Positions 10,668-43,134 of a stretch of DNA of 64,000 nucleotides are shown in pieces. The notes beneath the pieces are model-generated. The model was not told the origin of the DNA, made no database searches, and saw nothing but the letters and a program-made list of their open reading frames with translations. The stretch's first letter is position 1, and each line of letters begins with the position of its first letter. The position numbers and the translations under genes were made by a program. The DNA is from Clostridium minihomine (GTDB taxonomy: Bacteria > Bacillota > Clostridia > Oscillospirales > Acutalibacteraceae), in the NCBI RefSeq assembly GCF_900240385.1, contig NZ_OEQH01000005.1, positions 224,368-288,367 of the forward strand, written 5' to 3'.

Positions 10668-11465
10668 CTATTGCTTGATCAGGTTATAAGAAATGCAGGT
10701 GGGGCGTCCGGTATGGGGCTCCGCCATAATTTCTGCATCAATATGAAAGGTTTCTTTTAACACTTCGTGAGTCATCACTTGTTCCGGTGTGCCGTGGCAA
10801 ATAATATTGCCGGAGCGGATGGCTATCATATAATCGGCAAAGCGGGCGGCCAGATTCAGATCATGAAGCACCATTACAATGGTGCAGCCCTGTTCCCGGT
10901 TGAGCCGATACAGCAGTTCTAATACTTCCAGCTGATAGGCCAAATCCAGATAGGTGGTGGGTTCATCCAGCAAAATTAAGTCGGTTTGCTGCGCAAGAGC
11001 CATAGCAATCCAAACCCGCTGACGCTGCCCGCCGGACAAATTATCTACGGCTGTTGTTTCCAAATCGGTTAGCTTTGTCACTTCCAGCGCCCAACGGATG
11101 ATCTGTTTATCCTGTGGCTGTAATTTTCCGAATCCCCGCTGGTGGGGAAAGCGGCCATAAGCGACCAGTTCACCCACGGTAAGCCCTGCCGGTGCTTGGG
11201 GGGACTGAGGCAAAATGGCCATTTTCTGCGCCACTTCTTTTGTGGTAAGCTGGCGGATATCATCGCCGTTTAAATACACCATGCCGCCTTTGGGCTTTAA
11301 AATGCGCCCCACAGCTTTTAATACGGTGGATTTTCCGCATCCGTTGGGGCCGATAATGGTGGTGATTTTCCCCTGAGGGATCTGCATGTCCAAGTCATCA
11401 ACCACCAGATGATCTTCATAAGAAATGGCCAGATTTTCTGCCACGATGCTGTTCATTTCACTCAC
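10668..11465 (-). CDS. Iron-siderophore ABC transporter, ATP-binding protein
   Basis: This is a FhuC/FepC-type ATPase powering a type II (BtuCD-like) importer. In its 265 residues I see Walker A (GPNGCGKST, near residue 40), the Q-loop at LPQSPQAP, a signature LSGGQRQRVWIAMALAQ, Walker B LILLDEPTTYLDL, and an H-loop in VLHDLNLAAR; the TYLD variant is typical of siderophore ATPases. It is the last gene of a five-gene minus-strand order: binding protein, exporter-fold ABC protein, FecCD, FecCD, ATPase. It lies 17 bp after the second permease. The importer presumably serves the three binding proteins encoded upstream. Confidence 0.93.
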   Translation of the reverse strand: MSEMNSIVAENLAISYEDHLVVDDLDMQIPQGKITTIIGPNGCGKSTVLKAVGRILKPKGGMVYLNGDDIRQLTTKEVAQKMAILPQSPQAPAGLTVGELVAYGRFPHQRGFGKLQPQDKQIIRWALEVTKLTDLETTAVDNLSGGQRQRVWIAMALAQQTDLILLDEPTTYLDLAYQLEVLELLYRLNREQGCTIVMVLHDLNLAARFADYMIAIRSGNIICHGTPEQVMTHEVLKETFHIDAEIMAEPHTGRPTCISYNLIKQ

Positions 11466-11482
11466 TCCTTTGAAAAGGGTTT

Positions 11483-12535
11483 TTATGCATTGCTTTTTGC
11501 CAGCAAATAAAGGAAATAGGGGGCGCCGATGATTGCCACCATGATTCCTGTTGGGATTTCAGAGGGCTGTACGATCACCCGCGCGATGGTGTCGGCAACA
11601 GACACCAACACGGCTCCTGTCAATGCACAGGTGGGGAGAAGCACCGCATGACGGGGCCCCACCAGCCGCCGGGCCAAATGGGGGGCTATCAGCCCGACAA
11701 AGCTGATGCTGCCGCTGACGGCCACACAAGAAGCTGCCAATGCAACAGAAGCCCCCAGCAGCCTGCGCCGTTCTTTTTCTACAGAGGCACCCAGGCTGTA
11801 AGCCACGTCGTCCCCCAAGCTTAAAACATCCAATACCCGGGCTTTTGTCAAAACATAGGGGATCAGAACCAACAACCATGGCAAAAGGGCTAACACAAAC
11901 TTCCAGTTGCTGCCCCAGATGCTGCCGGCTTGCCAGGTTGCCACAAAGTCAAACTGGGTTTCGTCCAGCTTGACCACCAGCACGGTAGTCAAAGCCGAAA
12001 TTCCGGCCTGTATTGCCACACCGGTTAAAATTAGGCGCATGGGGGCAACGCCTTCTCCTTTTTTAAAGGCCAGTGCATAAATAGCCACGGCGGTTACCCC
12101 GGCCCCGGCCAGCGCCAGAAACGGCAAAGTAAACACGGATAAAAAGGACTGTGCACCAAAGAACAGCACATACAGAATCACCATGAGCCCTGCGCCCGCA
12201 TTGATTCCCAACAGGCCGGGATCTGCCAGCGCGTTTTTCGAAATGCCCTGTATTATGCAGCCGGACAGCGCAAGCCCGGATCCCACAAGCATAGAAACCA
12301 CAATACGGGGCAGCCGGAACCCGAACAGAATCAGGTTTTCTTTGCCGGTTCCCCCGCCAAACAGTGTTCTAAGGGTGTCCAGGGGCGATAGCTTTGTATA
12401 TCCGGTATTCATGCTAATGAGAAAAGAAAGAACCAGCAGTATTGCGCATCCAATGACAATGGCAGCATTCCGTTTGGCTATTTTGCGCTGATAGGCTTCG
12501 TTTTTTATTTGTTGAGCAGTCATTTGCTTGTTCAT
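11483..12535 (-). CDS. FecCD family iron-siderophore permease (second)
   Basis: A 350-residue inner-membrane permease of the FecCD family, with about ten membrane segments and an N-terminal cytoplasmic stretch of roughly 25 residues. Family motifs include GFRLPRIVVSMLVGSGLALSG near residue 75, NPLADPG-like NALADPGLLGINAGAG, and the GLIAPHLARRLVGPRH coupling loop near residue 275 that contacts the ATPase. It starts 3 bp after the preceding permease gene and probably forms a heterodimer with it. The sequence differs clearly from its neighbour, so the pair is not a recent duplication. Confidence 0.93.
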   Translation of the reverse strand: MNKQMTAQQIKNEAYQRKIAKRNAAIVIGCAILLVLSFLISMNTGYTKLSPLDTLRTLFGGGTGKENLILFGFRLPRIVVSMLVGSGLALSGCIIQGISKNALADPGLLGINAGAGLMVILYVLFFGAQSFLSVFTLPFLALAGAGVTAVAIYALAFKKGEGVAPMRLILTGVAIQAGISALTTVLVVKLDETQFDFVATWQAGSIWGSNWKFVLALLPWLLVLIPYVLTKARVLDVLSLGDDVAYSLGASVEKERRRLLGASVALAASCVAVSGSISFVGLIAPHLARRLVGPRHAVLLPTCALTGAVLVSVADTIARVIVQPSEIPTGIMVAIIGAPYFLYLLAKSNA

Positions 12536-12537
12536 CC

Positions 12538-13590
12538 TTAGATCGCCCTCCTTTGTTTTCGGGATAGATACAAAAAGAAGGGAACGCCCACAAGGGCAGT
12601 GAGAACGCCGATGGGGGTTTCAAAGGGGGGATTCAGCATTCTTGCGCCCAAATCTGCCAGCACCATTAAAATTGCGCCCAATACGGCAGAGGAGGGAATG
12701 ATCCAACGGTAATCCACACCCACCAGATAGCGGGCCAAGTGCGGAATCATCAGCCCCACAAAGCCCACTGATCCCACAACCGAAACAGAGGCTCCCGCCA
12801 AAATCAAAACAATCAGAGAACAAAGCACATTGACGGCGATGGTATTCAGCCCCAAGCCTTTTGCCACATCTTCCCCCAGACTTAACAGGGATACCGAACG
12901 GGATAAAACAATCGCTGCCAGCAAGGCGCCCAAAATCCAGGGAGTCATAATTTGAACTTGCTCCCAATTGGAACCCGCAACTCCGCCCACTGTCCAAAAC
13001 ATAATATCCTGAGCCACATGAAAGTACAGGGCAATTCCCTGGCTCAAAGCGGCCAAAAGCGCACTGACTGCCGCGCCTGCCAGCACCAGGCGCATGGGGG
13101 TGGCCCCACCCCGGCGCATAGAAGCGATGCCTTGAACCAAAACGGTTCCCAGTGCTGCCCCCAAAAAGGAAAAGAGAATGATTTGAAGGTAACCCATTCC
13201 GGGGAAAAAGGCAAAACAGAGCGAAAGTGCAAAACCTGCCCCTGCGTTCAGGCCCAACAAACCCGAATCGGCCATGGGGTTGCGTGTGGTTCCCTGCATA
13301 ATGGCCCCGGATACAGCAAAGGCTGCACCCACCAAAGCGCTGGCGATTACGCGGGGCAGGCGCAGATCCAGAACAATGAGGTGGTGGGTGTTTTCTTTAT
13401 CAAAGCGGAACAGGGCATCCCATACCGTTTGCAGCGAAATCTCGGCTGCCCCTTTGGTGATGGAAAACGCCATCAAAAAGCAAAGCAGTCCGGATCCGCC
13501 AAACAGAATGAGCCATGCTACCCAGACCCGGCTGTTTTGTTTATGTTGTATGGTTTGAGCCGGCTGTGCCGGATTGTTCGGTGAATTCAT
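12538..13590 (-). CDS. FecCD family iron-siderophore permease (first)
   Basis: A 350-residue FecCD-family permease with about ten membrane segments and a Gln/Asn-rich cytoplasmic N-terminus. It contains LRLPRVIASALVGAAFAVSG, then NPMADSGLLGLNAGAG and the coupling-helix region VGLMIPHLARYLVGVDYR near residue 280. Its ATG overlaps the stop of the exporter-fold ABC gene (ATGA), so the importer and the exporter-fold protein are translationally coupled. With its partner permease and the ATPase it forms a complete siderophore importer. Confidence 0.93.
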   Translation of the reverse strand: MNSPNNPAQPAQTIQHKQNSRVWVAWLILFGGSGLLCFLMAFSITKGAAEISLQTVWDALFRFDKENTHHLIVLDLRLPRVIASALVGAAFAVSGAIMQGTTRNPMADSGLLGLNAGAGFALSLCFAFFPGMGYLQIILFSFLGAALGTVLVQGIASMRRGGATPMRLVLAGAAVSALLAALSQGIALYFHVAQDIMFWTVGGVAGSNWEQVQIMTPWILGALLAAIVLSRSVSLLSLGEDVAKGLGLNTIAVNVLCSLIVLILAGASVSVVGSVGFVGLMIPHLARYLVGVDYRWIIPSSAVLGAILMVLADLGARMLNPPFETPIGVLTALVGVPFFLYLSRKQRRAI

Positions 13591-15365
13591 TTTGATTTGT
13601 TGCCTCCTTGCCGCTTTGCTCCGGCCTGTGCCTGATGCAGGCGGCTATAGATTCCCCCCTGCTGTATCAGTTCTTGATGTTCTCCTTGCTCTGCAATTCC
13701 GTTTTCGCTCAGCACGATGATACGGTCGGCCTGTTGTATGGTTGCCAAACGGTGAGCAACCACCAATGTGGTGCGTCCTTTGGAAAGCTCTGCCAAAGAC
13801 TGCTGAATGGCAGCTTCTGTTTGTGTGTCCAGAGAAGACGTGGCTTCGTCTAAAATCAGAATCGGTGGGTTTTTCAGAAACATTCGGGCGATGGAAAGCC
13901 GTTGTTTTTGTCCGCCGGACAGCTTTACGCCCCGTTCCCCAATGACCGTGTCCAAGCCATTCGGTTGTTGGCTGATAAATTCATCCAGCTGTGCCTGCCG
14001 GGCTGCTTCCCGAATTTCTGACTCAGTGGCATCCAGCTTTCCGAACCGAATGTTTTCCCGAATGGTGCCAGAGAATAAGAAAACATCTTGCTGCACCACG
14101 CCGATTTGCCGGCGAAGAGAAGCCAGCGTCATCTGGCGGATATCGATTCCATCAATGGTAATGCGGCCGGAATCCGGTTCATAAAACCGGGGAAGCAGGC
14201 TGCATAGTGTGGATTTCCCCGCCCCAGAGGTTCCCACAAAGGCAACGGTTTCTCCGGCATGGATGGTCAGGCTGATGTTTTCCAGCACATGGCGATTTTC
14301 TTCATAGCCGAATGTGACGGCTTCATAACGAATATCCCCTTTTAACGAGGTAACTTCCACAGCATCTTTTGCGTCCTGAATTTCCGGCTCGGTATCCAAC
14401 AGTTCCACACAATTCTGAAAGCCCGCCATACCGTTAGGAAATCGAACAGAAAAAGCTGCCAGCATTCGAATGGGCGCCATGGTTACGTTTGTTAAAAGAA
14501 TAAAGCGGAACAGTTCGCCGTTGCTCATCGTTCCGTTTAGGGTAAAATAACTGCCCCCCAGCAAAGCAAGAACTGGCAGAATGCTGAGAAAAACATAAGA
14601 AACCGCTTCGTTTTTTGCCGTGTTACGAAAGCCCTCTATTTTGGCTTCACAAAAACTTCGGTTATCTTCAATAAAAAGATCTCTTTGGTAATCTTCATTG
14701 GCAAAGGCCTGTACCACGCGGATGCCCCCAATGCCGTCTTCCAGACGGTTTAGAAAACCGCCGATGGCTCCAAACAGTTTTGATCTGGCTGCCACCAGTT
14801 TGTGCATATAATAGATGTTGATCATGAGCAGAACCGCTACACAAATGCTTAGAAGCAATGCCAGCTGCCAGTTAGTTCGGAACATCAGGGTCATAGAACC
14901 GAGCAAAGTGAAGGTGGCGATTAAAAAATGTTCCGGCCCGTAATGAGCCATGTTGCCCACATCCAGCAAATCGTTGGAAATCCGCGAGGCAAGCTGTCCG
15001 GTTTTATGATTATCGAAGAATCGGAAGGAAAGCTTTTGCAGGTGGGTGTAAAGTTCTGTGCGCAAATCGGTTTCAATGTACAGCCCAAGACACTCGCCCC
15101 AATAACCCACGATGTATTTCAGACCGGTGTTGATAAGATAAATTACCGTAAGGGCGGCGCAGGCAGAAAGAATCAGGTTCCAGTTTCCGGTGGGAAGGAG
15201 CGAATCCACAATGTGGCTGACGGTAACCGGAAAAAGCAGTTCCAGCAAAGCGGCCGATACGGCACAGAATAAATCCAGAAAAAATAGTCCTTTATAAGGA
15301 CAGTAATATTTAAAAAATCGTTTGACAGTTTGAATCACAGCTGATTTTTCTTTCCTTTCACTCAA
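13587..15365 (-). CDS. ABC transporter, fused membrane and ATPase domains (exporter fold)
   Basis: This is a 592-residue half-transporter with six membrane segments (residues ~15-310) and a C-terminal ATPase with Walker A VGTSGAGKST near 385, Q-loop VVQQDVFLFSGT, signature LSGGQKQRLSIARMFL, and Walker B ILILDEATSSLD. It would work as a homodimer. It is in one operon with a FecCD importer, overlapping it by 4 bp. Exporter-fold proteins beside siderophore genes may export siderophores or their products, but in mycobacteria (IrtAB) and Yersinia (YbtPQ) such proteins import siderophores, so direction cannot be assigned. The start is uncertain: the TTG at 15365 is the longest option, and a GTG nine codons later is possible. 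Confidence 0.88.
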   Translation of the reverse strand: MSERKEKSAVIQTVKRFFKYYCPYKGLFFLDLFCAVSAALLELLFPVTVSHIVDSLLPTGNWNLILSACAALTVIYLINTGLKYIVGYWGECLGLYIETDLRTELYTHLQKLSFRFFDNHKTGQLASRISNDLLDVGNMAHYGPEHFLIATFTLLGSMTLMFRTNWQLALLLSICVAVLLMINIYYMHKLVAARSKLFGAIGGFLNRLEDGIGGIRVVQAFANEDYQRDLFIEDNRSFCEAKIEGFRNTAKNEAVSYVFLSILPVLALLGGSYFTLNGTMSNGELFRFILLTNVTMAPIRMLAAFSVRFPNGMAGFQNCVELLDTEPEIQDAKDAVEVTSLKGDIRYEAVTFGYEENRHVLENISLTIHAGETVAFVGTSGAGKSTLCSLLPRFYEPDSGRITIDGIDIRQMTLASLRRQIGVVQQDVFLFSGTIRENIRFGKLDATESEIREAARQAQLDEFISQQPNGLDTVIGERGVKLSGGQKQRLSIARMFLKNPPILILDEATSSLDTQTEAAIQQSLAELSKGRTTLVVAHRLATIQQADRIIVLSENGIAEQGEHQELIQQGGIYSRLHQAQAGAKRQGGNKSK

Positions 15366-15424
15366 AATTTGTTTATCCGTTCAAAAATGCGAAGTTTTTT
15401 GAAAATAAACAGAGCGAAGCAAGG

Positions 15425-15480
15425 CAAAAACCGGGTGTCGTCCGCTGTCAGCGGGCTGCGCCCGGTTTTTCCTTTTTTAT
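15425..15480 (-). terminator. Internal terminator or attenuator of the iron operon
   Basis: Read on the minus strand, AACCGGG pairs with CCCGGTT around an inner CCGCT/AGCGG hairpin and is followed by TTTTTG. It lies between the binding-protein gene and the exporter-fold gene, so the binding protein would be made in excess over the membrane parts. Confidence 0.65.
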
Positions 15481-15488
15481 TTTTTAAA

Positions 15489-16457
15489 TCAGTGATTTGT
15501 TTCTTCTACCACACGAACCACCTCATCCAAAGCCCAGTCCAGAGTCAAAACATCCCCTGCGGACAGACGTGCCCCCAAGGTATAAACATGATTGTTTTTG
15601 ACTGCGGACAAAGAGTTCCAAACCGAATGATTGGTAAATTCCTGTTTCAGTTCTGGCATGCTTGCGTCGTTTACACTGGTCAGAAAAATATAATCCGGGT
15701 TATATTCGGTTAGCTGATCCAAAGACAAATTCGCCCCTGCGGTCAATTCTTTCAGGGGGGCTGCATCCGGCAGAGTCAGACCCAAGACCTCATAAATAGT
15801 TGGCCAGGTGCTGGCGGGATAAATATAGGTGGCATTTTTAGATGACAGCTGGATGAGCAGAGCGGTTTTTCCTTCCGGAATCTCATCAGACAGTTTTGAC
15901 TTTACGTTTTTTGCTTTCTCTTCATAAGAGGAAATCCAAGATTCTGCCTCTTCAGCTTTTCCCAATATATCACCGATGGTGCGAAGGTTTTCAATGGCAT
16001 TGCCGAAAAAAGGCCCGACAACAGTTGGGGCGATTTTACTAAGTGCTTCAATGGTATCTTCATTGGTGACATTCATGGGTGTAATGATTAGTTCCGGCTC
16101 AAGTTCCAGAATTTTTTCATAATTCAGGTTGCTTACTGCCCCCACAGATTCAATGCCCTCTTTTTGCGTTTCGTCTAAACTGGTCAGCCAGTTTTCGGCA
16201 GCACCTGCAGGTTTTATTCCCAAAGCGATGGCTTCTGCGGTCATATTAATGGTTACAATCCGCTGCGGATTCACAGGGATTTCTACCTCACGCCCAGCTT
16301 TATCCACATAGGTTTTGGTTTGTGTCGTACCGGCAGAAGAGGATTCCGACACTCCCGGGTTACTGCTTTCTGGGGAAGTGCCGGCACAGCCGGTCAATAC
16401 GCCGGCCAGCAATGAGATAGAGGCAAAGATTCCGATCCATTTATTCGTTGTTTTCAT
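15489..16457 (-). CDS. Siderophore-binding lipoprotein 1
   Basis: A periplasmic-binding-protein-like (FepB/FhuD, class III) lipoprotein that captures ferric siderophore outside the membrane. I choose the second Met (16457), because AGGAGA directly abuts the first. A signal peptide ends in a lipobox, LAGVLTGC. The mature part has the family opening VEIPVNPQRIVTINM, the spacer helix, and the EPELIITP/IAPTV segment. It is the first gene ahead of the exporter-fold and FecCD genes, and is therefore the likely main partner of that importer. An iron-box promoter precedes it (16486-16543) and an attenuator follows it. Confidence 0.9.
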   Translation of the reverse strand: MKTTNKWIGIFASISLLAGVLTGCAGTSPESSNPGVSESSSAGTTQTKTYVDKAGREVEIPVNPQRIVTINMTAEAIALGIKPAGAAENWLTSLDETQKEGIESVGAVSNLNYEKILELEPELIITPMNVTNEDTIEALSKIAPTVVGPFFGNAIENLRTIGDILGKAEEAESWISSYEEKAKNVKSKLSDEIPEGKTALLIQLSSKNATYIYPASTWPTIYEVLGLTLPDAAPLKELTAGANLSLDQLTEYNPDYIFLTSVNDASMPELKQEFTNHSVWNSLSAVKNNHVYTLGARLSAGDVLTLDWALDEVVRVVEETNH

Positions 16458-16485
16458 ATGTTTCATTCTCCTATTCGGACAAAGG

Positions 16486-16543
16486 TTAGCGTAACCTAAC
16501 GTTATGCCTTAGTTAGTATAGCAAAAGTGCTTTTCGATTGGAA
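16486..16543 (-). promoter_or_regulatory. Promoter with TTAG-N6-CTAA operator, binding protein 1
   Basis: On the minus strand the -35 is TTCCAA (16538-16543), the spacer is 17 bp and the -10 is TATACT (16515-16520). The inverted repeat TTAG-CGTAAC-CTAA (16486-16499, plus-strand reading) lies just after the expected start of transcription. DtxR-family boxes are similar. Confidence 0.75.
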
Positions 16544-16559
16544 TGGAATAATTCTGAAT

Positions 16560-17384
16560 TCACCATGTATTATTCTTGAATTTGTTTCGAAACTCGCTGG
16601 GGGAAATTCCGAACTGCTTTTTAAAGGCACGGCTGAAATGATAGGGATCTGTGTATCCCACGCTTTTTGCCACAACACTGACCGTAAGAGAAAAATTCAA
16701 CAGAAGTTCTTTGGCTCGGTTTAGCCGGTAAGCAATCAGATAATTCCCCGGCCCCATACCGGAGTATTTTTGAAACAAATAGGACAGGCGGTTTTCGTTT
16801 ACCTGATAGTGCTTGGCCAGCGCACCCACAGAAAGAGGATCCATATAATTCTCGTGGATATAGGCTATGATTTGATCAAACAAAACCTGTGTTTCATTGC
16901 TGTTTGAGCGGTGAACACTGCGAAATAACTCGTCCAGTACACAGCGGAACAGCATTTCGGTGCGAAAGGCATAAATGCCGCCGGGTCGGCTGGAAATCTG
17001 CCACAAGCGTTCCAGCAGTTCCATGAGCCGGGGGCTCTGACCGGTTTGCAGTTCAAAGTGAGAAGAAAGCAGAGAGAAATCTTTCGGTTCGCTGCCGCAG
17101 ATGCTGTAAAGCACCAAAAGGTATTCCCAGTTTTCCTTCCCGACCACCCGGCGGCTTAACTGCAGATTTGCACCGCCATGAACCACATTCCCCGGCGCAA
17201 GAAGATAAGGGGTTCCGTCAAATACAAATTCTGCTTTGCCGCTCAGCGGAAATACAAATCCGGGGCAGGGATCGGACTGACTGCTGTAATACATGCCAGG
17301 TTCCCGAACGAATCGGTGCACCAGCTCAACCCGAAAGGCGGTGTGCGCAAAGTGTTCGGCCAGTGTGTTCATGTCCAGTTTCAC
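16560..17384 (-). CDS. AraC family transcriptional regulator 1
   Basis: The GTG at 17384 follows GGAGG at eight bases. In 274 residues there is an N-terminal cupin-like sensing domain (residues 1-150; FVFPLSGKAEFVFDGTPYLL is the typical block) and a C-terminal double helix-turn-helix of AraC type (residues 170-270) with LSVGALAKHYQVNENRLSYLF and the signature SVGYTDPYHFSRAFKKQFGISPSEFR. It lies 50 bp after binding-protein gene 2, so the two probably share a transcript, and directly before the promoter of binding-protein gene 1. By analogy with YbtA, PchR or Btr it may activate transport genes when siderophore is bound; this is inference. Confidence 0.9.
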   Translation of the reverse strand: MKLDMNTLAEHFAHTAFRVELVHRFVREPGMYYSSQSDPCPGFVFPLSGKAEFVFDGTPYLLAPGNVVHGGANLQLSRRVVGKENWEYLLVLYSICGSEPKDFSLLSSHFELQTGQSPRLMELLERLWQISSRPGGIYAFRTEMLFRCVLDELFRSVHRSNSNETQVLFDQIIAYIHENYMDPLSVGALAKHYQVNENRLSYLFQKYSGMGPGNYLIAYRLNRAKELLLNFSLTVSVVAKSVGYTDPYHFSRAFKKQFGISPSEFRNKFKNNTW

Positions 17385-17433
17385 TTTGGGTTCCTCCTTC
17401 CGGGTGCTGCTTTTCTATTCGGCTGGGGTTCAT

Positions 17434-18426
17434 TTATTCTTTCTGTAAACTATTTACCACAAAATCAACACCGTATTGAGTGGCAATGGGGGAGTTAAAA
17501 GCAAAAATGGAACGATCGGTCTGATAGATATTTCCCTTTTGAATGGCTGAGATGGAAGTCCATACGGAATTTTTGTTCAGCTCTTCTAACCGTTGTTTTG
17601 CGGTTTCATCGCCATAGTCGGTCATCAAAAAGATATGATCCGGATTGCATTCCGCCAAAGTTTCCAGCGAGATTGGATCAGAACGATTGGTCACCACCGG
17701 ATAAGCTTCGGGCGCTGTCAGACCCAGTCCGCTTTTTTCATCGTATACCACTTGAAGTTGAGATACGCTGTAGGGCCATATGGTCTTATCGTTGATCGAA
17801 ATAAAAATTAAAGTTTCTCCTTTGGAACGAAAATCCTGAAGCTTTTTGGCTGAATCTGAAACAGTGGTTTCCACTTTGGCAATGGCGGCATCTGCCTCGG
17901 CTTCTTTGCCCAAAAGTTTTGAGAATTCTGCCACGCCATATTTCCAGTCGGAATTGATCTGGTTATAGTCCAGAACAACGGTGGGGGCAATTTTAGAAAG
18001 TTCTGCATAGATATCTTCGTGCAGGGGAGCGGCAAGAATCAAATCTGGCTCTAATTCCAGAATCTTTTCCAGATTGGGGGCAGTTGGACTTCCGACATCA
18101 ACAATGGATTGGTTAGAGGTATAATCCCGATAGGCAGCCCATTGATTGAGCAATGTATCGGCAGATGCAACGCCCACGGGTGATACCCCAAAAACATACA
18201 GATAATCTGGGTACATGGCATGAAACACAGAAACCACCCGCTTCGGCTGCTGTTCCAAAACTACCTCATGGCCCAAAGAATCCACATAGGTGTTGGGGAA
18301 TGAGGTTTCGCTGGCAGAGGGTGTGCTTTCGTTCGCTGAGGGATTTTCTGTGGATGGCTTAGCGCATCCAGCCAACAGCCCTGTCAAAATGGCAAGTGAG
18401 ACCATCAGTCCCATAAATCGTTTCAT
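17434..18426 (-). CDS. Siderophore-binding lipoprotein 2
   Basis: The ATG at 18426 is chosen because GGAGGA precedes it; five residues upstream are open but have no site. A signal peptide with lipobox LTGLLAGC is followed by a Ser/Glu-rich linker and a class III binding-protein fold. Shared features with the other two copies are YVDSLGHEVVLEQQPKRVVS, NLEKILELEPDLI and KIAPTVV. The middle and C-terminal parts differ strongly from copies 1 and 3, which suggests a different ligand. It is preceded by its own iron-box promoter and followed closely by the AraC 1 gene. Confidence 0.9.
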   Translation of the reverse strand: MKRFMGLMVSLAILTGLLAGCAKPSTENPSANESTPSASETSFPNTYVDSLGHEVVLEQQPKRVVSVFHAMYPDYLYVFGVSPVGVASADTLLNQWAAYRDYTSNQSIVDVGSPTAPNLEKILELEPDLILAAPLHEDIYAELSKIAPTVVLDYNQINSDWKYGVAEFSKLLGKEAEADAAIAKVETTVSDSAKKLQDFRSKGETLIFISINDKTIWPYSVSQLQVVYDEKSGLGLTAPEAYPVVTNRSDPISLETLAECNPDHIFLMTDYGDETAKQRLEELNKNSVWTSISAIQKGNIYQTDRSIFAFNSPIATQYGVDFVVNSLQKE

Positions 18427-18452
18427 ACTAGATTCCTCCAATGTTATTTTAG

Positions 18453-18508
18453 TTAGGTTTGGCTAACTTGTACCAAGCCAGTATAGCAAAGGATAAAAAG
18501 GATTGGAA
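18453..18508 (-). promoter_or_regulatory. Promoter with TTAG-N6-CTAA operator, binding protein 2
   Basis: Minus-strand -35 TTCCAA (18503-18508), 17-bp spacer, -10 TATACT (18480-18485). The operator is AGTTAG-GTTTGG-CTAACT (core 18453-18466), again just inside the transcript. Confidence 0.75.
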
Positions 18509-18597
18509 TGGGGCTGTTTACAAAACACCATGGACTTTTGCCGGAAAACAATAGGCCAATCCGTACCAAGCATAGACATGGCAAGTTACAGAAAAGA

Positions 18598-19590
18598 TTA
18601 TTGGGAATCTACATTTTTGACAATGGTTTCAATTGCAAGCTGCACACCCAAAGGTGAACCGGTAACACAAGAGGCATCCAGAAAATAAACATTCCCATTT
18701 TGTACGGCTTTCAGGGATTTCCAGACCGATGATTCCTCGGTGGTTTTGTGCAAATAAGTCTGCTGATATCCCGTTTCTTCCGAGCCAAGCTGTCCCACAA
18801 TGAAAATAGAATCCGGATTCCAATCTGCCATGGTTTCCAGTGAGATTTGGCCGTATTTTTCCGGGTATCCTGCCGGAGCAGTTAGGCCAAGCCCGTTTTC
18901 TGTGTCAAAGAAAGATTGCTGAGAGGTTGCTTTGGATCCAAAAGCGCCAAACGTATTTTTCTCTTGAGACCAGGCGATCACAAAGGTTTTGTTGCGATAA
19001 GCAGAAAGCTTTTCTCGCGATGTTGTCATCAGAGCATCCACTTGCTGAATGTATTCTTCTGCTTCTTTTTCTGCACCTAAAAATGCCGCATAGTCATTCA
19101 GATTATCTTTCCAGTCTGTGCTGTCAAACAACAGGGTGGGGGCGATTTGATTGAGTTCCTCATATCGTTCCGTAAAGAAGGCAGTGCCCACGATGAAATC
19201 GGGTTCTGCTTCCAGAATTTTTTCCAGATTCGGTTCTCTTGGATTTCCCAAATCAATAATTTCTGCTTCTTTGGCGTATGGCTGAAGTGTGCCGAATCCA
19301 TTCATCGCAGTGGTTGCCCACCCGGCGGCGACTGGGGGACTCCCCAGCACAATCAGGGGTTCTATGTGGCCAAAGTATAAGCAGACAATGCGCTGCGGCT
19401 TCTGTTCTAAAGTAATTGTATGTCCAAAATCGTCTGTTACGGTTCTGGGCCATGCAGATTCAGAATCGTCATTGCTTGTTTGTGCCATGCTGGCTTCCAT
19501 CTGGCTGTTTTCAGCGGGTGTCCCGGTGCATCCGGACAGAATTCCGGTAAAAAGCGCAAAGGACAAAATCAGTCCCATTCGTTTTTTCAT
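18598..19590 (-). CDS. Siderophore-binding lipoprotein 3
   Basis: A 330-residue lipoprotein; the ATG at 19590 follows GGAGGG. Lipobox LFTGILSGC is followed by a class III binding-protein fold with HTITLEQKPQRIVC, PREPNLEKILEAEPDFI and QIAPTLLF. It is closer to copy 2 than to copy 1, sharing the GLGLTAP block in the C-terminal lobe, so these two probably arose by duplication followed by divergence. It has its own iron-box promoter. No permease lies in its transcript, so it presumably docks on the FecCD pair encoded downstream. Confidence 0.9.
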   Translation of the reverse strand: MKKRMGLILSFALFTGILSGCTGTPAENSQMEASMAQTSNDDSESAWPRTVTDDFGHTITLEQKPQRIVCLYFGHIEPLIVLGSPPVAAGWATTAMNGFGTLQPYAKEAEIIDLGNPREPNLEKILEAEPDFIVGTAFFTERYEELNQIAPTLLFDSTDWKDNLNDYAAFLGAEKEAEEYIQQVDALMTTSREKLSAYRNKTFVIAWSQEKNTFGAFGSKATSQQSFFDTENGLGLTAPAGYPEKYGQISLETMADWNPDSIFIVGQLGSEETGYQQTYLHKTTEESSVWKSLKAVQNGNVYFLDASCVTGSPLGVQLAIETIVKNVDSQ

Positions 19591-19620
19591 GATATATTCC
19601 CTCCATTTTGTTTTTTTTGG

Positions 19621-19676
19621 TTAGATGTCGCTAACTTATCACAAGCCAGTATACCAAACCGAAAAATAGATTGGAA
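19621..19676 (-). promoter_or_regulatory. Promoter with TTAG-N6-CTAA operator, binding protein 3
   Basis: Minus-strand -35 TTCCAA (19671-19676), 17-bp spacer, -10 TATACT (19648-19653), then GTTAG-ATGTCG-CTAAC (core 19621-19634). The string TATACTGGCTTG is identical to that of the binding-protein 2 promoter. Confidence 0.75.
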
Positions 19677-19820
19677 TGGAATGAATGCCCGAATCCTATG
19701 GAATTTTTCCCGACTGTTTATACAAGGTAGTGGTTGAGGAGAAAAACACAATTTTTTAGAGCTGTTTGCTATTTGGGAAACGGAAACAATTGGGGGAAGA
19801 ATCTTTGCACTTAAAACATT

Positions 19821-20648
19821 TTACATGCGGTTTTGGGTATGTATCCGGAATTCAGAGGGAGAGATTCCGGTCTTTTTGCGGAATACTTTGCTAAAATAAA
19901 GATTATCAGTGTATCCCACACACTCCGCCACTTGTTTTATGGGGCAGGAACAGGTGCGCAGCAGTTCTTGGGCATGCTGAATACGAAGTTCAGACAAATA
20001 GCGGGAAGGATTCACACCCATATGTTTGCGGAACAATTCAGCAAACTGCCTTCCGTTTAGCCGGTATTGTTCCGCCAGCTGGGTAATAGAAAGCGGCTGC
20101 GAATAGTTCTCCTGCAGAAAAACGGCGGCATCTTCCATCAAGCTGCCATGATTCTCACGATGCTGCCGTTTGGCGGATAACAAAATTTCTTCCAGCAACT
20201 GGTGAAACAGAGAGCGGCTGCGCAGCGCCGCCATGCTGCCGGGTGCTGCATCACTGGCCAAAAGCTGCCGGGTCATATCGATGATTCGGGAGTTGATTCC
20301 GATTGGAAGATTAAAATGAGTATGATAAAAAGGGGAAGACTGATGTTTTTGATCGGGAATTCGATAATGAATCAAAGCATAATGCCATTTTTTGTTTCCG
20401 ATGACTTCTTTGTCCAGCCGCATGCCGGGGCCGGCGTGAATCAGCATACCGGGTTCCATCACATAAGGTGTGCTGTTTAGTGTAAAACAGGCGCTGCCTG
20501 CCAAAGGGATTACCAGGCCGCATACATTTTGAGCTGTGGATCCGTTGGACAGTGCGTTCCCCGGAACAACACAGTCTTCAAACGTATCAGAAAGGGACAG
20601 ATTTGCGGTTGCATAGTAATCCGTCAGGTCACTCAGGTCAATCTTCAT
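19821..20648 (-). CDS. AraC family transcriptional regulator 2
   Basis: A 275-residue regulator whose ATG (20648) follows AAAGGAG. The N-terminal cupin-like domain contains GLVIPLAGSACFTLNSTPYVMEPG-type sequence, and the C-terminal double helix-turn-helix contains LSITQLAEQYRLNGRQFAELF and ECVGYTDNLYFSKVFRKKTGISPSEFR. It lies 22 bp after AraC 3 and is probably cotranscribed with it. It resembles AraC 3 in the order of blocks throughout, so these two are paralogues. It sits just upstream of binding-protein gene 3. Confidence 0.9.
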   Translation of the reverse strand: MKIDLSDLTDYYATANLSLSDTFEDCVVPGNALSNGSTAQNVCGLVIPLAGSACFTLNSTPYVMEPGMLIHAGPGMRLDKEVIGNKKWHYALIHYRIPDQKHQSSPFYHTHFNLPIGINSRIIDMTRQLLASDAAPGSMAALRSRSLFHQLLEEILLSAKRQHRENHGSLMEDAAVFLQENYSQPLSITQLAEQYRLNGRQFAELFRKHMGVNPSRYLSELRIQHAQELLRTCSCPIKQVAECVGYTDNLYFSKVFRKKTGISPSEFRIHTQNRM

Positions 20649-20670
20649 GCCGTCTGTTGACTCCTTTGCA

Positions 20671-21498
20671 TTAAATGCGGTTTCTCATAGATTCTCGATA
20701 TTCCGAAGGGGAAAAGCCGGTTTGCTTTTTGAATGCTCTGCTGAAATACAGGCTATCTGCATAGCCGACACTTTCTGCCACTTGTTTTACCGGGCACTCA
20801 CAAATGTGCAGCAGTTCTTTTGCCTTTCGCATTCGGCATTCAATTAAGTATTGAATGGGACTCATTCCCACATGGCGCTCAAATAAATACGAGAGCCTTC
20901 GCCTATCTATTTCATATCGTTCCGCAATTTGAGAAACCGTCAGCAAGGTTGCGTAATTTTGCCGAATGTAATCCATAATCTGTTCAATTTGAAGGGTATC
21001 ATCGTTTACTGTTTGCCTTTTGGCTAAAGTGAAAAATTCCCCCAACAGATTGCTGAATAAAATCTTAGACTGAAAGGCTGCCAGCGCACCGGGAATGGAT
21101 TGCTGAGAAAGCAGCTGCTGAATTAAATCGGTAATTTTAGCGTTTTCACCGGTAGAAAAGGAAAAGTGAGATTGGAAAAAAGGAAATCTTTTTATTTCAT
21201 TTATAGGAATTCGGTAATGAATAACAGCAAACCGCCAAGGTTCGCGGCCTGCTCCCTTTATGTTCAGGTTCATACCCGGGCCTGCGTGAACCACTATGCC
21301 GGGTTTCATCAAATAAGAAGTGCCGTTTAGGGTAAAATGTGACATTCCGGCAAGGGGAATAGCCAGTCCACCATACAGTGCATTGGTTTTTCGGTGAATG
21401 CCCGGTTTGCCCGGTAAGGCTTGTTCCAGAAAGATTCCCACAAACGACCAGTTTGCTTTTGCGTAATAATCAATTATGTCATTGATGTTTCTTTCCAA
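20671..21498 (-). CDS. AraC family transcriptional regulator 3
   Basis: I set the start at TTG 21498, because GAGGTG lies six bases upstream and the product then aligns residue for residue with AraC 2 from position 1; the GTG three codons earlier overlaps the ribosome-binding site itself. About 275 residues: a cupin-like N-terminal domain (GLAIPLAGMSHFTLNGTSYL) and a C-terminal double helix-turn-helix (LTVSQIAERYEIDRRRLSYLF; SVGYADSLYFSRAFKKQTGFSPSEYR). An iron box lies about 100 bp upstream, so the AraC 3-AraC 2 pair is itself probably repressed by metal. Confidence 0.88.
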   Translation of the reverse strand: MERNINDIIDYYAKANWSFVGIFLEQALPGKPGIHRKTNALYGGLAIPLAGMSHFTLNGTSYLMKPGIVVHAGPGMNLNIKGAGREPWRFAVIHYRIPINEIKRFPFFQSHFSFSTGENAKITDLIQQLLSQQSIPGALAAFQSKILFSNLLGEFFTLAKRQTVNDDTLQIEQIMDYIRQNYATLLTVSQIAERYEIDRRRLSYLFERHVGMSPIQYLIECRMRKAKELLHICECPVKQVAESVGYADSLYFSRAFKKQTGFSPSEYRESMRNRI

Positions 21499-21602
21499 CA
21501 GGTTCACCTCGTTGCGCCCAAATCAGTTGTAAGCGGGCCGGACTCTATTGTATTTGACACAAAAAATGGTCTATCCGTTTTCTGTTTTGGAAAAAGAAAA
21601 AG

Positions 21603-21616: not shown

Positions 21617-21867
21617 CTTTTATATAGTATCATAATTATTTCTATTTTACAAGAGAAGCAAACATAGACAGGACTTCGAAAAAAGGTGAATAAAATTTAG
21701 TTTAGAGGGGTGATGCTACACTTGCCATTCTTTCATTTTTGGTGTGTCTGTTAAAATCAAAACAGGCTGGAATCGCCGGAATAACAGCTGGCTTTCTGAC
21801 AGAATATTTTTCAAAGGGGATGTATGTTTGTCCGGATCCCTTCATATAGATTTCATGGGGTGTTTTT

Positions 21868-22059
21868 TTGCCACATCTAAAAGATATTCCAGGGGAGACA
21901 CTTGCCTATTTGGCCACTACTACAGCCATTGCCATATCACAGGATTTTGATCTGGATGATCTAGCTATTTTATCCAGCTTCTTTGGCGCAATTGGTTCCA
22001 ATTTAAGCATCATTGCCGCTCAAAGAGGTGCACAAAAGGGGATTATTATAGATCCATAA
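21868..22059 (+). CDS. Small hypothetical protein, paralogue of the gene at 8108
   Basis: A TTG start at 21868 follows GGGGTG at five bases. The 63-residue product (PGETLAYLATTTAIAISQD... AIGSNLSIIAAQRGAQKG) matches the 62-residue product at 8108-8296 at the PGE, the alanine-rich helix and the AIG-NLS-IA-QR block. Together the pair argues that both are translated. It is soluble, without Cys or membrane segments, and has unknown function. It sits inside the iron region but on the opposite strand, and has no clear iron box of its own. A terminator follows at 22121. Confidence 0.6.
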   Translation: MPHLKDIPGETLAYLATTTAIAISQDFDLDDLAILSSFFGAIGSNLSIIAAQRGAQKGIIIDP

Positions 22060-22120
22060 CTGGTATCAATGGCTGTTTACTTTTGGGGTATGACAGAAAG
22101 AGCGAATCTGAAAATCAAAA

Positions 22121-22149
22121 AAAACCAGCTGTAAAACAGCTGGTTTTTT
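22121..22149. terminator. Bidirectional terminator
   Basis: AAAACCAGCTG pairs with CAGCTGGTTTT around TAAAA, with A and T runs on both sides. It ends the small plus-strand gene and the minus-strand Shr-like gene. Confidence 0.85.
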
Positions 22150-22189
22150 CGCCGAAAGCAACAAGTGTTGTTTTTTAATAAAAGGGGAA

Positions 22190-24472
22190 TTAGCCTTCTT
22201 CAGACAAGTCTTCCGATTCCGAAGATTCCTCGATAGAAGGGCTTACTTCTTCGGTGGATTCCTCGATGGTGGTTTCTTCTTCTATGTCATCAGATTCTTC
22301 TACAATCGGTGTTTCTTCCGTTTCTTCTTCCTCTTCAATTAAAACAATTTCGGAAGTATCTTCTTCCTCTAACACAAAAGAATCCGGCTCTTCTGTCACT
22401 GCCATGGATTTTCCGGTTGCTTCCGGTTCTGCCAAGCGGGGAATTTCAAGAACAATATCTACATATTCCGGGTTAGAGAGCACCAGTATGTTGGTTTCTT
22501 CTGTAAAATACTGGAAGGGAATGGCAAGACCGAATCCGGAAGAGTTTATGTTTGTGAAGCTTTCTCCGTTTAACGTGGCGGTTACATTATCGGCAAAGCT
22601 AAAATCGGTATATCCATCGCTGCGGAAGGAAAGAATCAATTCTTTATACCAATTGTTTTCACTTTGAACGGCCTGCGCCTCTTTCAGAATGATGAAGGTG
22701 GCGGTGACATCATCATAGCCCTGCGCCTGAATGGTCAGCCTGTTCTTTCCGGGATCTTCAAAGTAATCACCTGCAACCACAATGGTGTCGCCCTGAATTT
22801 GATAATTTACCTCTTTGGTGTGCTGGCGGGGATAGGTCAATACAATTTTGGTAATATTCTCTTTCCAGTTGTCGTATCCGGCATCGAACAGGATGGCGAC
22901 ATCTTTGCCCTGCAGCGTGTTTTCTACTGTGATCTGAGGTGCTTCATCGGGGACGATGATTTCGTCAGGGCAGGTAATGCTCAGCACTTGGGTGCTGTAA
23001 TATTTGGTTTTGTCTGTGATGCGCAGAGTATAGGTTTCGCCGGGAGTAAAGTTCTTTGCTAGAATCTCAATTCCGCCCCAAGAGGGTTTCAGGACAAAGT
23101 CTTCGTTTTCTACCAGTTTTCTGTCATTCAGTTCAAAGATACATTCTTGTCTGAGATATACAGATACGCTGCTTTCTGCCTCGACGATTTCCAGACTATT
23201 ATTGCCTTGTGTCAGCCACTTGGTGCTGAGTTCCGGCGCTTGTACGCGGGGGCTGAAGTTTACCCAAACCGGATTATATCCGGGCACCGATACAATTACC
23301 TGATACAAAGAATAATTGTAAAGGGATGTTGTTTCGGGAATTGCCAGAATAAAGCGGTTGTTTTCCAGATCTTTTTCCAAAGTCCACCCGCGCATCTGGA
23401 AGGGAACTTCATTGGGGAACATGATATTGTACTGATAGGTGATGTGTTCCTCTTTCAGATCATTGAGCCAGTCTTGGGAATTTTCACCCACAGCATCAAT
23501 GACGAGCGGAACACCGTATCCCTCAACCATTTCAATTGCTGCAATGGCCGGTGCAATTTTTGGCATGACAAAATCATTGGGTGTGGTGAAGTGAAGCGTT
23601 ACATTCTGATAGCCTTGGGCAGTTAAAACAATGGTGTTTTCGCCGATGTTCAGAAACTTATAGGGGACCTGTACCTGAGTAAGAGAATACGGGCCGCACT
23701 CTGCTTTGCGCTCAACACCGTTGACATAGATTGCGTCCAGATTCTCACTGTAATAGAACAGGTAGTCCAGATCCTTAATTTCCATGACCGCCACACAGGT
23801 AACGTCATCCCATTTTAACTGAATTTCGGGTCCTTTTTCCCCAGTGTTTTCTGGGATATCGGTGTTGCCGTTATTACCTTCAGAGCCACCGGGATTAGTA
23901 CTTTCACCGGGATTGGTGTTTTCATTAGAACCACCGGGATTGGTGTTGCTGCCAGTGTTGCTGCTGCTTTTTCCGCCGCTGCTTTTTTTGCTGCTTCCGC
24001 CGCCGGAAGAGCTGCCGGTGGGAATGACATCATTGCCGGGAGCAGAAATAACGTCTTGAGCAGGAGGGGTTGTATCCACAACGGGAGCGACCAAAGGAAC
24101 TTGGGGCTCCACAATGTTCTGCTGCTGTGCAGGAGCCGTATTTGGGGACACGGCAGAGTTTTTAGAACCAGCAGAGTTTTTAGGATTGGAGGCTACAGCA
24201 GGTTGTCCCTTTGCTGCGGCAGCCGGAACCACTGAGTCTGCTATGATTTCGAGCTCGGCTTCTTCGGTTGTTTGTGCTGCAATGTTTTCTTCGGTGTCAG
24301 GTTCTTCTGCCAGCGGAATTTCTGTTTCTTCCGCTGTAATAATTTCTTCGGCCTGTGATATTACCGATGTGGTTTCTTCCACTGTTTTTTCGTTGTTTGG
24401 CCACACAAAAAAAACCAGCAAAAGTGCAAACAATGCCGCACCTGCTCCAAACCAAACTTTCTTTTTTATCAC
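22190..24472 (-). CDS. Membrane-anchored protein with five Shr-HID-like (DUF1533) domains
   Basis: A 760-residue surface protein. Layout: basic N-terminus and one hydrophobic segment (residues 8-24) without a clear cleavage site, an acidic and Ala/Pro-rich stalk (25-150), a Ser/Gly/Asn linker (152-212), five tandem beta-rich domains of 80-100 residues (about 215-296, 303-407, 413-502, 512-595, 600-678), and a strongly acidic tail (694-760). Domains 1 and 4 best show the pattern: a VNG turn, then F-x-x-G-x-N-x-I-x-I-A-x-GY-x-D/N-x-T-x-x-F, as in the haemoglobin-interacting domain (HID, DUF1533) of streptococcal Shr. There is no LPXTG signal and I see no NEAT domain. Two iron boxes lie upstream. 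A role in binding haem proteins is inferred. Confidence 0.7.
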   Translation of the reverse strand: MIKKKVWFGAGAALFALLLVFFVWPNNEKTVEETTSVISQAEEIITAEETEIPLAEEPDTEENIAAQTTEEAELEIIADSVVPAAAAKGQPAVASNPKNSAGSKNSAVSPNTAPAQQQNIVEPQVPLVAPVVDTTPPAQDVISAPGNDVIPTGSSSGGGSSKKSSGGKSSSNTGSNTNPGGSNENTNPGESTNPGGSEGNNGNTDIPENTGEKGPEIQLKWDDVTCVAVMEIKDLDYLFYYSENLDAIYVNGVERKAECGPYSLTQVQVPYKFLNIGENTIVLTAQGYQNVTLHFTTPNDFVMPKIAPAIAAIEMVEGYGVPLVIDAVGENSQDWLNDLKEEHITYQYNIMFPNEVPFQMRGWTLEKDLENNRFILAIPETTSLYNYSLYQVIVSVPGYNPVWVNFSPRVQAPELSTKWLTQGNNSLEIVEAESSVSVYLRQECIFELNDRKLVENEDFVLKPSWGGIEILAKNFTPGETYTLRITDKTKYYSTQVLSITCPDEIIVPDEAPQITVENTLQGKDVAILFDAGYDNWKENITKIVLTYPRQHTKEVNYQIQGDTIVVAGDYFEDPGKNRLTIQAQGYDDVTATFIILKEAQAVQSENNWYKELILSFRSDGYTDFSFADNVTATLNGESFTNINSSGFGLAIPFQYFTEETNILVLSNPEYVDIVLEIPRLAEPEATGKSMAVTEEPDSFVLEEEDTSEIVLIEEEEETEETPIVEESDDIEEETTIEESTEEVSPSIEESSESEDLSEEG

Positions 24473-24581
24473 AAAAACTCCTCCTCGTTTTTAGCATTTG
24501 CCACAGATTCCGCAATTCGGTCGGCAAAAGCATGTGATTCTTCTTCTTTTTGTTCTTCCGGGGCGCGTTCGAAAGCGTATG

Positions 24582-24595
24582 TTAGTTATATCTAA
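24582..24595 (-). promoter_or_regulatory. Second TTAG-N6-CTAA operator before the Shr-like gene
   Basis: TATGTTAG-TTATAT-CTAACATA is a perfect 22-bp palindrome in the leader of the Shr-like gene, 110 bp before its start codon and 112 bp from the promoter-proximal copy. It may serve a second promoter (TATACC on the minus strand near 24607) or help repression through DNA looping. Confidence 0.65.
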
Positions 24596-24693
24596 CATAC
24601 GCTGATGGTATAATCTCGTTTTGCTGTTCTGCCGGGGGGACTCCCCTGAAATTGTCTGTGTTTCCCCCTTTCTTAATTCAATTAACGAGAATG

Positions 24694-24744
24694 TTAGTTA
24701 TTACTAACATTCCAAACTATACAGAAAATAATACCAATAGTCAA
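24694..24744 (-). promoter_or_regulatory. Promoter with TTAG-N6-CTAA operator, Shr-like gene
   Basis: On the minus strand the -35 is TTGACT (24739-24744), the spacer 17 bp and the -10 TATAGT (24716-24721). The perfect palindrome GAATGTTAG-TTATTA-CTAACATTC (core 24694-24707) covers the start of transcription. The leader is about 235 nt. Elsewhere in 24473-24900 I see no gene. Confidence 0.75.
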
Positions 24745-26977: not shown

Positions 26978-27737
26978 TTCTGGCACCGCCTGTCGCAATC
27001 ATCGTCAGGGTATCCGAAATTTTTTGAAACATGGTTTCTGTGCTGGAAGAACCCTTATACAGCTGATGATAAATTTCGCCGTCTTTAATAAACAGTACCC
27101 GTTTGGCACTGCTGGCGGCTTTGATGCTGTGTGTTACCATCAAAATGGTCTGGCCGCTTTCGTTAATCTCAGAAAAAATACGCAGAAGTCCATCGGTTGC
27201 GCGGGAATCCAGCGCGCCGGTGGGTTCGTCTGCCAGAATCAGCTGTGGGTTGGTAATCAGAGCACGGCAAACGGCGGCTCGCTGTTTTTGTCCGCCCGAA
27301 ACTTCATAAGGATATTTTTCTAAAAGCTCTAAAATTCCCAACTTTGCTGCCAAAGGCTGAAGTCTGCGGTTCATCTCGTCATAGGTTTTCCCGGATAAAA
27401 CAAGGGGAAGAAAAATATTATCTTTTAAAGAAAAAGTATCCAAAAGATTAAAATCCTGAAAAACAAACCCCAAATTATCCCGCCGAAAAGCAGAAATTTC
27501 TTTTTCTTTTAAATCCGGCAGGCTTTTTCCGTTCAAAAGCACCTCGCCGCTGGTGGGTTTGTCCAAAGCAGCCAAAGTGTTCAGAAGCGTGGTTTTTCCC
27601 GAACCGGATTCGCCCATGATGGCGACATATTCACCCTGTTCTACCGAAAAAGTGACGTTGGACAAGGCTTGCACGTGATTTCCGCCAAAGCGGGTTGTAT
27701 ATACTTTTTTTAGGTTGTTTACTTCTAAAAGGGTCAT
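26970..27737 (-). CDS. BceA-type ABC transporter ATP-binding protein
   Basis: A 255-residue ATPase of the MacB/BceA group. Walker A is GESGSGKTTLLN, the Q-loop is FVFQDFNLLDTFSLKDNI (typical of this group), the signature is VSGGQKQRAAVCRAL, and Walker B is LILADEPTGALDS, followed by the H-loop in VTHS. A ribosome-binding site GGAGG precedes the ATG at 27737. It is probably transcribed from a response-regulator-dependent promoter in the gap after the kinase gene. Confidence 0.93.
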   Translation of the reverse strand: MTLLEVNNLKKVYTTRFGGNHVQALSNVTFSVEQGEYVAIMGESGSGKTTLLNTLAALDKPTSGEVLLNGKSLPDLKEKEISAFRRDNLGFVFQDFNLLDTFSLKDNIFLPLVLSGKTYDEMNRRLQPLAAKLGILELLEKYPYEVSGGQKQRAAVCRALITNPQLILADEPTGALDSRATDGLLRIFSEINESGQTILMVTHSIKAASSAKRVLFIKDGEIYHQLYKGSSSTETMFQKISDTLTMIATGGARNE

Positions 27738-27770
27738 AGGTTATTTTCCTCCTTTGTGGTTTCCTTGTCC

Positions 27771-27838
27771 AGTATAGCAAAAAGGAGAAATGGGCTGCCA
27801 TTGCTTTGGCTTACATTTCTCCCGCTGTTCTTACATTT
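27771..27838 (-). promoter_or_regulatory. Probable response-regulator-activated promoter of bceAB
   Basis: On the minus strand a -10 TATACT (27771-27776) has only a poor -35 (GGCAGC, 27794-27799). Two direct repeats, CTTACATTT in plus-strand reading, lie at 27810-27818 and 27830-27838, exactly 20 bp apart (two helical turns), upstream of the -35. This is the expected layout for an OmpR-type activator. Confidence 0.55.
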
Positions 27839-27852
27839 TTGAAAGACCGAAT

Positions 27853-28860: not shown

Positions 28861-28861
28861 C

Positions 28862-42480: not shown

Positions 42481-43134
42481 TTAAGCGATATTCGTCCCCA
42501 TATAGAGTTTGCAGGAAGCCTTGTAGCTGAGTTGTACTTTGTTGCCGTCAATCACGACGGTCAGCGGCCCTTCATAGGGCGCTTGTTCTACAAGTGTAAT
42601 TTTACTACCGATTTTCACACCCAGCGTTTGCAGGTAATCCATCAATTCGGTTTCTTCCACAACGCGCCGTACATAAGCAGAAGCGCCGGGCGCTAACTGA
42701 TTTAGTGGAACCAAAGGCACTACCTCAATGCTTCCGTCCGGGTGAGGGATCGCGCTTCCGTGGGGACAGTAGGCAGGAAAATTTAAAAATTGATCCAAGC
42801 GTTCGATGAGCCGAATGGGCGTCATATGTTCCAGCATTTCCGCATCCTCGTGAGCCTCGCTCCAGGAATACCCCAAATGGCGCATTAAAAACACTTCCCA
42901 AAGGCGGTGGCCTCTTAATAGGGATATAGCTTTCCGAATTCCTTCGGCAGTCAGCTGAGAGCCATGGTACGGTTTGTATTCAATTAATTTTTCGTGTTGC
43001 AGTTTGCCCAGCATTTCGGTAACAGAAGGCGGTGTGACTTTCAGTGCCTCTGCCAGTTTTTTGTTTCCAACCTGCTGTTCCGCTCCGCCCAATTTATACA
43101 ATTCTTTAATATAATCTTCTTTTTGTGGTGTCAT
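42481..43134 (-). CDS. DtxR/MntR-family metal-dependent repressor (SloR/ScaR-like)
   Basis: A 217-residue regulator. Residues 1-60 form the winged helix (LAEALKVTPPSVTEMLGKLQ), 65-140 the dimerisation and metal domain, and 145-217 an SH3/FeoA-like domain (TLGVKIGSKITLVEQAPYEGP). Metal-ligand candidates are D7, H76, E80, H95, E99, E102 and H103. The Glu at 99, where DtxR has Cys102, is a MntR/SloR trait, while the SH3 domain and length fit SloR, ScaR and PsaR. It starts the Mn/Fe transporter operon and has the TTAG-N6-CTAA box in its own promoter. It is the likely repressor of all eight such boxes in this window. Confidence 0.9.
   Translation of the reverse strand: MTPQKEDYIKELYKLGGAEQQVGNKKLAEALKVTPPSVTEMLGKLQHEKLIEYKPYHGSQLTAEGIRKAISLLRGHRLWEVFLMRHLGYSWSEAHEDAEMLEHMTPIRLIERLDQFLNFPAYCPHGSAIPHPDGSIEVVPLVPLNQLAPGASAYVRRVVEETELMDYLQTLGVKIGSKITLVEQAPYEGPLTVVIDGNKVQLSYKASCKLYMGTNIA

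Follow-up and report, generated by a model that had tools for sequence, protein, structure and literature searches.

The HID domain has been described as the part that grips haemoglobin in a streptococcal virulence protein, Shr of Streptococcus pyogenes, in which HID1 and HID2 (PDB 6dkq, 8dov, 7cud and 7cue) are combined with NEAT domains. The haemoglobin contacts of Shr HID2 include Ile224, Ser225, Met238 and Arg196-Tyr197 (PMC10912661), while shr is repressed by the DtxR-family protein MtsR and its product also attaches to laminin (PMC6593403). In the DtxR, IdeR and MtsR iron regulons generally, palindromic operators lie before iron-uptake genes, and Isd/NEAT haem uptake likewise embodies the idea of iron-regulated capture at the surface. 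Here we describe a gene for a predicted HID-domain surface protein within a stretch of 64,000 nucleotides from Clostridium minihomine (contig NZ_OEQH01000005.1; the whole stretch is termed the window), a member of the order Oscillospirales in GTDB. The genus resembles Faecalispora, in that its SpoIIE-like protein is 87% identical to that of F. jeddahensis and 86% identical to that of Clostridium sporosphaeroides; NCBI places Faecalispora in Eubacteriales, Oscillospiraceae.

The focal protein resembles Shr in its HID match by sequence profile, in its predicted surface location and in a probable DtxR-family type of control, which on the focal side is represented by palindromic boxes. In contrast to Shr, it has no NEAT domain and no leucine-rich repeat match, and no sia-type haem operon was seen; it has instead siderophore-type neighbours, a predicted N-terminal anchor and an acidic tail, and the haemoglobin contacts of Shr are not recognisable in it by eye. 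Unlike the Isd/NEAT proteins, it also carries no LPXTG-like motif anywhere in its sequence. What is new here is that the palindrome found before the focal gene recurs before other HID genes of the order. Literature searches, one of which was swamped by unrelated words, turned up no description of either HID or DUF1533 from Clostridia.

Palindromic boxes before HID genes

Two perfect copies of the palindrome GTTAG-N6-CTAAC lie upstream of the focal gene, as the earlier note had claimed, one of them directly after a promoter-like site (Table 1). Within the window, the extended pattern TGTTAGN6CTAACA with two or fewer mismatches occurs at 11 sites, compared with 1.88 expected. Throughout the 2.7 Mb genome there are 28 sites for GTTAG-N6-CTAAC and only 6 for the pattern read backwards, and two of the 28 are the focal gene's own. 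An open reading frame (ORF) starts 3-250 nt downstream of 24 of these boxes, one further box overlaps the start of FTR1, and three have no ORF start within that distance. Half of the boxes (14 of 28) belong to genes for FecB-type binding proteins (six, including a fusion to AraC), FTR1 (one), DtxR-family proteins (two, one of which has FeoB on the opposite side at 563 nt) and AraC-type regulators (five). The remaining boxes lie before a Crp-type, an activase-type and a GntR-type gene, genes for a hydrolase and a methyltransferase, those for an ABC exporter and an NMT1-like binding protein, an ORF of 208 aa and, with two boxes, the gene for ribosomal protein S4. Iron-uptake genes across the genome thus share a palindrome, as would be expected of a DtxR-type iron regulon; its placement before such genes is as in the DtxR, IdeR and MtsR regulons, whereas the motif itself is different. 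Three DtxR-family genes seen in the genome are candidates for the protein that binds it.

To determine how far this arrangement extends, we considered HID genes of related genomes, where PF07550 was found in 43 of the 394 sampled genomes of the order, the source genome included. A first look, which covered 13 of 14 HID loci, had placed a box upstream in 8 of them. In the order sample, a box was counted if it lay no more than 600 nt upstream or in the first 60 nt of the HID gene, and by this rule 10 of the 47 other HID genes are boxed (9 genomes, 4 genera, 3 families). The corresponding count for neighbouring ORFs, a mechanically drawn set that includes spurious frames, is 3 of 286 (Fisher p 2.6e-7, with related genes treated as independent), and the reversed pattern is found at none of the 47 HID genes; HID proteins thus recur in the regulon within the order. 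One of the three boxed control ORFs stands just upstream of the HID gene of genome G134, which itself has two boxes about 1.8 kb before its start. Genes with short upstream sequence were kept in the counts, namely two of the 47 with less than 150 bases (L103 and L105) and, in the class-wide count given below, one of 24 with 283 (L153).

When the order sample is split at a best HID score of 28 bits, 10 of the 18 genes at or above this value are boxed versus 0 of the 29 under it, a division that was drawn after the order counts were known and fixed before the class-wide count. One boxed gene, on contig C17 of G280, reaches 28.7 bits in the genome search and 22.6 in Pfam. The class-wide count, made on a second set of 391 genomes, covered HID genes of 28 bits or more; outside the order, only 1 of 24 is boxed (in G509, twice). 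Given 10 boxed HID genes of 47 in the order against 1 of 24 strong ones in the rest of the class, the link between box and HID belongs to this order, perhaps also to one other family, and not to HID in general. PF07550 proteins of Clostridia share with the focal protein a common domain, often in tandem and, in the order, often in S-layer proteins, and they differ from it in being mostly without a box. That every HID gene is iron-boxed was accordingly rejected as a generalization, given the order genes under 28 bits and the strong ones elsewhere in the class. A search with simple patterns found no Fur-type box upstream of 13 HID loci in the order or of the 24 genes in the class. Taken as a prediction from sequence, iron control of the focal gene is well supported by the genome-wide pattern and by its recurrence before HID genes of the order.

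HID homology, architecture and company

When the whole focal protein was searched against Pfam, PF07550 (Shr-like_HID) was the sole family over its cut-off, with 62.2 bits and an E value of 6.9e-17 distributed over two stretches; the curated cut-off of 22.3 bits is exceeded singly by domains 1 and 4 (Table 1). A scan of the same protein with NCBIfam gave no model over its cut-off. Each domain was also aligned by hhalign with 40 HIDs of other genomes, the control being the best of 100 shuffles. Domain 4 scored 56.1 versus 14.1 for its best shuffle and domain 1 scored 43.2 versus 15.7, followed by domain 2 (21.0 versus 13.8) and domain 3 (17.4 versus 15.5), while domain 5, at 12.5, fell under its best shuffle of 16.5. 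An AlphaFold2 model of medium confidence (pLDDT 71.0, pTM 0.41) has five beta-domains with elements in like order. The modelled domain 4 superposes on Shr HID2, and equally well on unrelated beta-sandwich domains; in a search with the HID profile, by comparison, the Shr HID2 chains alone fall under E 0.1 (3e-11), the next chain being at 0.12.

Homology to HID is thus supported by profile comparison for two of the five domains that the earlier note had called HID-like (1 and 4), with weak matches for domains 2 and 3 and a score for domain 5 that does not rise above shuffles. The profile and structure check that it had proposed for each domain gave five modelled beta-domains and clear profile support for the same two. 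The outcome that it named as refuting, a match to generic Ig-like folds only, is borne out by the fold comparison and contradicted by the sequence profiles. The low-complexity stalk is present as a Gly/Ser/Asn-rich stretch reaching to about residue 214, and the absence of LPXTG agrees with the sequence. The N-terminus is hydrophobic as described, which makes a membrane anchor a reasonable prediction, and the tail is acidic (30 E, 5 D and 2 K/R) with a length nearer 82 than 65 residues. About 465 beta-rich residues separate stalk and tail. A search of a large protein database gave one near-identical protein.

In relatives, S-layer domains are present in 8 of the 9 boxed HID proteins scanned (ten are boxed; L047 was left out). 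Genes for ApbE lie near HID genes in G309 (L036), G248 (L041), G223 (L044), G262 (L045) and G280 C17 (L131), which represent four genera, and FMN_bind is found inside the HID protein itself in G309, G363, G262 and G280 C17. The HID genes of G363 and G223 are without a box. These associations point to flavinylated proteins of the S-layer, of which some would be under iron control. Tp47-type domains (PF14888 and PF14889) also occur in HID proteins of G280 (L131) and G363 (L042).

Neighbouring genes and other boxed loci

The features of the window that bear on the focal gene are collected in Table 1. Family names in the iron-chelate uptake neighbourhood rest on matches below curated cut-offs. Promoter-like sites in the region number 4, compared with 1.3 in shuffles.

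Table 1. Coordinates (window numbering) of the focal gene, its parts and associated features.
Feature	Position	Strand	Basis or remark
Iron-chelate uptake neighbourhood	10668..21507	minus	boxes at 16484, 18451, 19619, 21601
ATPase	10668-11465	minus	profile match under curated cut-off
Permeases	11483-12535, 12538-13590	minus	second named by eye only
ABC exporter-type protein	13587-15365	minus	profile match
FecB-type binding proteins	15489-16466, 17434-18441, 18598-19590	minus	matches under curated cut-offs
AraC-type regulators	16560-17384, 19821-20648, 20671-21507	minus	first named by eye only
Terminator-like hairpin 3' of focal gene	22118..22150	minus	1 found vs 0.6 in shuffles
HID-domain surface protein gene	22190..24472	minus	760-aa ORF, GTG start behind GAGGAGG; own promoter-like site and terminator-like hairpin
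Acidic tail, residues 679-760	22193..22438	minus	D/E 35 of 82; sequence
Domain 5, residues 600-678, beta-domain without HID support by sequence	22439..22675	minus	hhalign and model
Domain 4, residues 512-595, clear HID	22688..22939	minus	Pfam 41.6 bits and hhalign
Domain 3, residues 413-502, very weak HID-like beta-domain	22967..23236	minus	hhalign and model
Domain 2, residues 303-407, weak HID-like beta-domain	23252..23566	minus	hhalign and model
Domain 1, residues 215-296, HID match	23585..23830	minus	Pfam 25.6 bits and hhalign
Stalk, residues 29-214	23831..24388	minus	acidic, then Gly/Ser/Asn-rich; sequence
Predicted N-terminal membrane anchor, residues 1-28	24389..24472	minus	hydrophobic sequence
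Box 2, perfect dyad, 12-base arms, in 5' leader	24574..24603 (core 24580-24597)		sequence
Box 1, perfect dyad, 9-base arms	24689..24712 (core 24692-24709)		starts 3 bases after -10-like hexamer
Promoter-like TTGACT-17-TATAGT	24716..24744	minus	10 of 12 consensus positions; consensus match only
DtxR/MntR-family regulator gene	42481..43134	minus	2-mismatch box at 43152-43169; one of the three DtxR-family genes

At 21700-22080, in the interval that separates the HID gene from the AraC gene, short open stretches resemble remnants of a membrane-protein gene. Adjoining the HID gene, at 25001-29542, are genes judged by eye to encode a BceAB-like ABC transporter and a two-component system, without exact boxes. 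The methyltransferase gene at 30341-31306 has a box 152 nt upstream, and G248 also has boxed methyltransferase genes (L179 and L132).

Other boxed loci lie elsewhere in the genome. A boxed cluster (L073 2335-17116; G000 C5:31000-49000) carries FTR1, P19-type Iron_transport, FtrD-like, FMN_bind and ApbE genes identified by Pfam, together with FtsX-type permeases and ATPases named by eye, and then a boxed fusion of AraC with Peripla_BP_2. The gene for ribosomal protein S4 (L068 2039-2736; G000 C3) has two boxes less than 75 nt from its start, a sign that this S4 copy may respond to iron. A DUF3793 gene (L072 5521-6069) at no great distance from FeoB (Pfam) has a box 423 nt before it, and there is a box near FeoB as well; this resembles G333, in which a DUF3793 gene (L180 8270-8830) and, not far away, a FeoB-like ORF named by eye both have a box upstream.

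Proposed function and its alternatives

Since the gene shares its boxes with iron-uptake genes and two of its domains match Shr HID, the protein is likely to be a receptor for an iron-carrying ligand that serves in iron scarcity. We consider it moderately probable that this is an iron-repressed, membrane-anchored HID surface receptor, likely under DtxR-family control, which captures such a ligand for the neighbouring siderophore-type transporters. In this model, an iron-loaded repressor would occupy the two boxes under iron-rich conditions, and expression would begin once iron runs short. The N-terminal helix is predicted to stay in the membrane, with the stalk carrying the domains outward. 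The HIDs would then grip an iron-bearing ligand near the membrane. This ligand could be a ferric chelate, a haem protein (as for Shr) or some other iron protein, and iron or chelate would be handed to binding proteins of FecB type and permeases of FecCD type; the acidic tail may contribute by retaining cations. Cooperation with the adjoining FecB-type proteins is proposed from the neighbourhood and the shared boxes. The boxed HID proteins of related genera probably work along similar lines.

Several observations weigh against this proposal. HIDs do not go with iron everywhere, since a box is missing from most of their genes (37 of 47 sampled in the order, 23 of 24 strong ones in the rest of the class), the boxed genes, coming from so few genomes and families, are not independent, and in G235 the box overlaps the first codons of the frame. 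The palindrome is enriched over its reversed form in four of the six genomes checked (G248 22 versus 1, G280 14 versus 2, G333 11 versus 0, G162 33 versus 1) and is not enriched genome-wide in G357 (7 versus 4) or G262 (5 versus 7). Besides the DtxR-family candidates, two Fur-family genes are present in the source genome, and the regulator could belong to either family. The fold is a common beta-sandwich, for which comparison yields mainly Ig/FnIII-type and S-layer domains, and the proposed receptor function is deduced from the HID match, the location and the gene company. Three searched congeners have no HID, and the gene is therefore dispensable in the genus. Only G003 among them has a closer FecB match (37% over the full length, 46% over a shorter ORF), compared with 21-25% in the others; this pattern suggests a recent gain or loss of both the focal gene and the uptake cluster within the genus.

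Haemoglobin is a possible ligand, and here too there are points on the opposing side. NEAT is absent, as the earlier note had stated: there is no match in the source genome at E 0.001 and no Pfam hit in the focal protein, and across 16 genomes a single match (G363) lies under the cut-off. In domains 1 and 4 the loop after the VNG strand, which is the site of Ile224, Ser225 and Met238, differs by eye from that of Shr in length and letters, and Arg196-Tyr197 falls outside the aligned stretch. We therefore regard as improbable a haemoglobin or haem receptor exactly like Shr, from which non-NEAT proteins would take the haem, even though the HID homology and a DtxR-type control like that of shr would suit it. 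The three FecB-type proteins score 31-56 bits against the IsdE haem model (cut-off 298.65), and the best HutW match in the genome is 153.5 bits against a cut-off of 400, with weak matches also in 14 of 14 control genomes. The claim that haem transport genes are absent is, in the part of it that was checked, in keeping with these sub-threshold scores.

The prevalence of Ig/FnIII-type and S-layer folds among structural matches would also suit an iron-regulated adhesin or coat protein, whose beta-domains would bind host or food surfaces with iron shortage as an expression cue only. HIDs in S-layer (SLH) proteins of relatives and the laminin attachment noted for Shr point the same way, yet the focal gene adjoins a boxed iron-chelate uptake cluster, and half of the boxes in the genome are found at iron-uptake genes or at genes for the kinds of regulator that accompany them; this explanation is doubtful. 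Quite improbable for the focal protein is a reductive system in which it would keep hold of the iron source for reduction by flavinylated surface proteins. That arrangement would account for the ApbE genes near HID genes, for the FMN_bind domains within HID proteins and for an ApbE gene of the source genome lying in the boxed FTR1 cluster, but that gene is the genome's single ApbE match, about 200 kb away, and the focal protein has no FMN_bind domain by Pfam.

A broader form of the receptor proposal is tentative and rather unlikely as a whole. In this form, HID arrays would be the capture modules of an undescribed iron-repressed, NEAT-independent scavenging system on the surface of gut Oscillospirales, physically joined in several genera to flavinylated proteins of the S-layer, which would carry out an extracellular reduction of the captured iron or haem. 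A domain described from a streptococcal virulence protein is here found without NEAT and with the palindrome of iron genes, in Clostridia that are presumably of a gut, commensal type. This raises the questions of what HIDs bind when no NEAT domain takes the haem, and of how such bacteria acquire iron at their surface. If the proposal is true, one palindrome and one domain together would suffice to recognize a set of candidate iron receptors.
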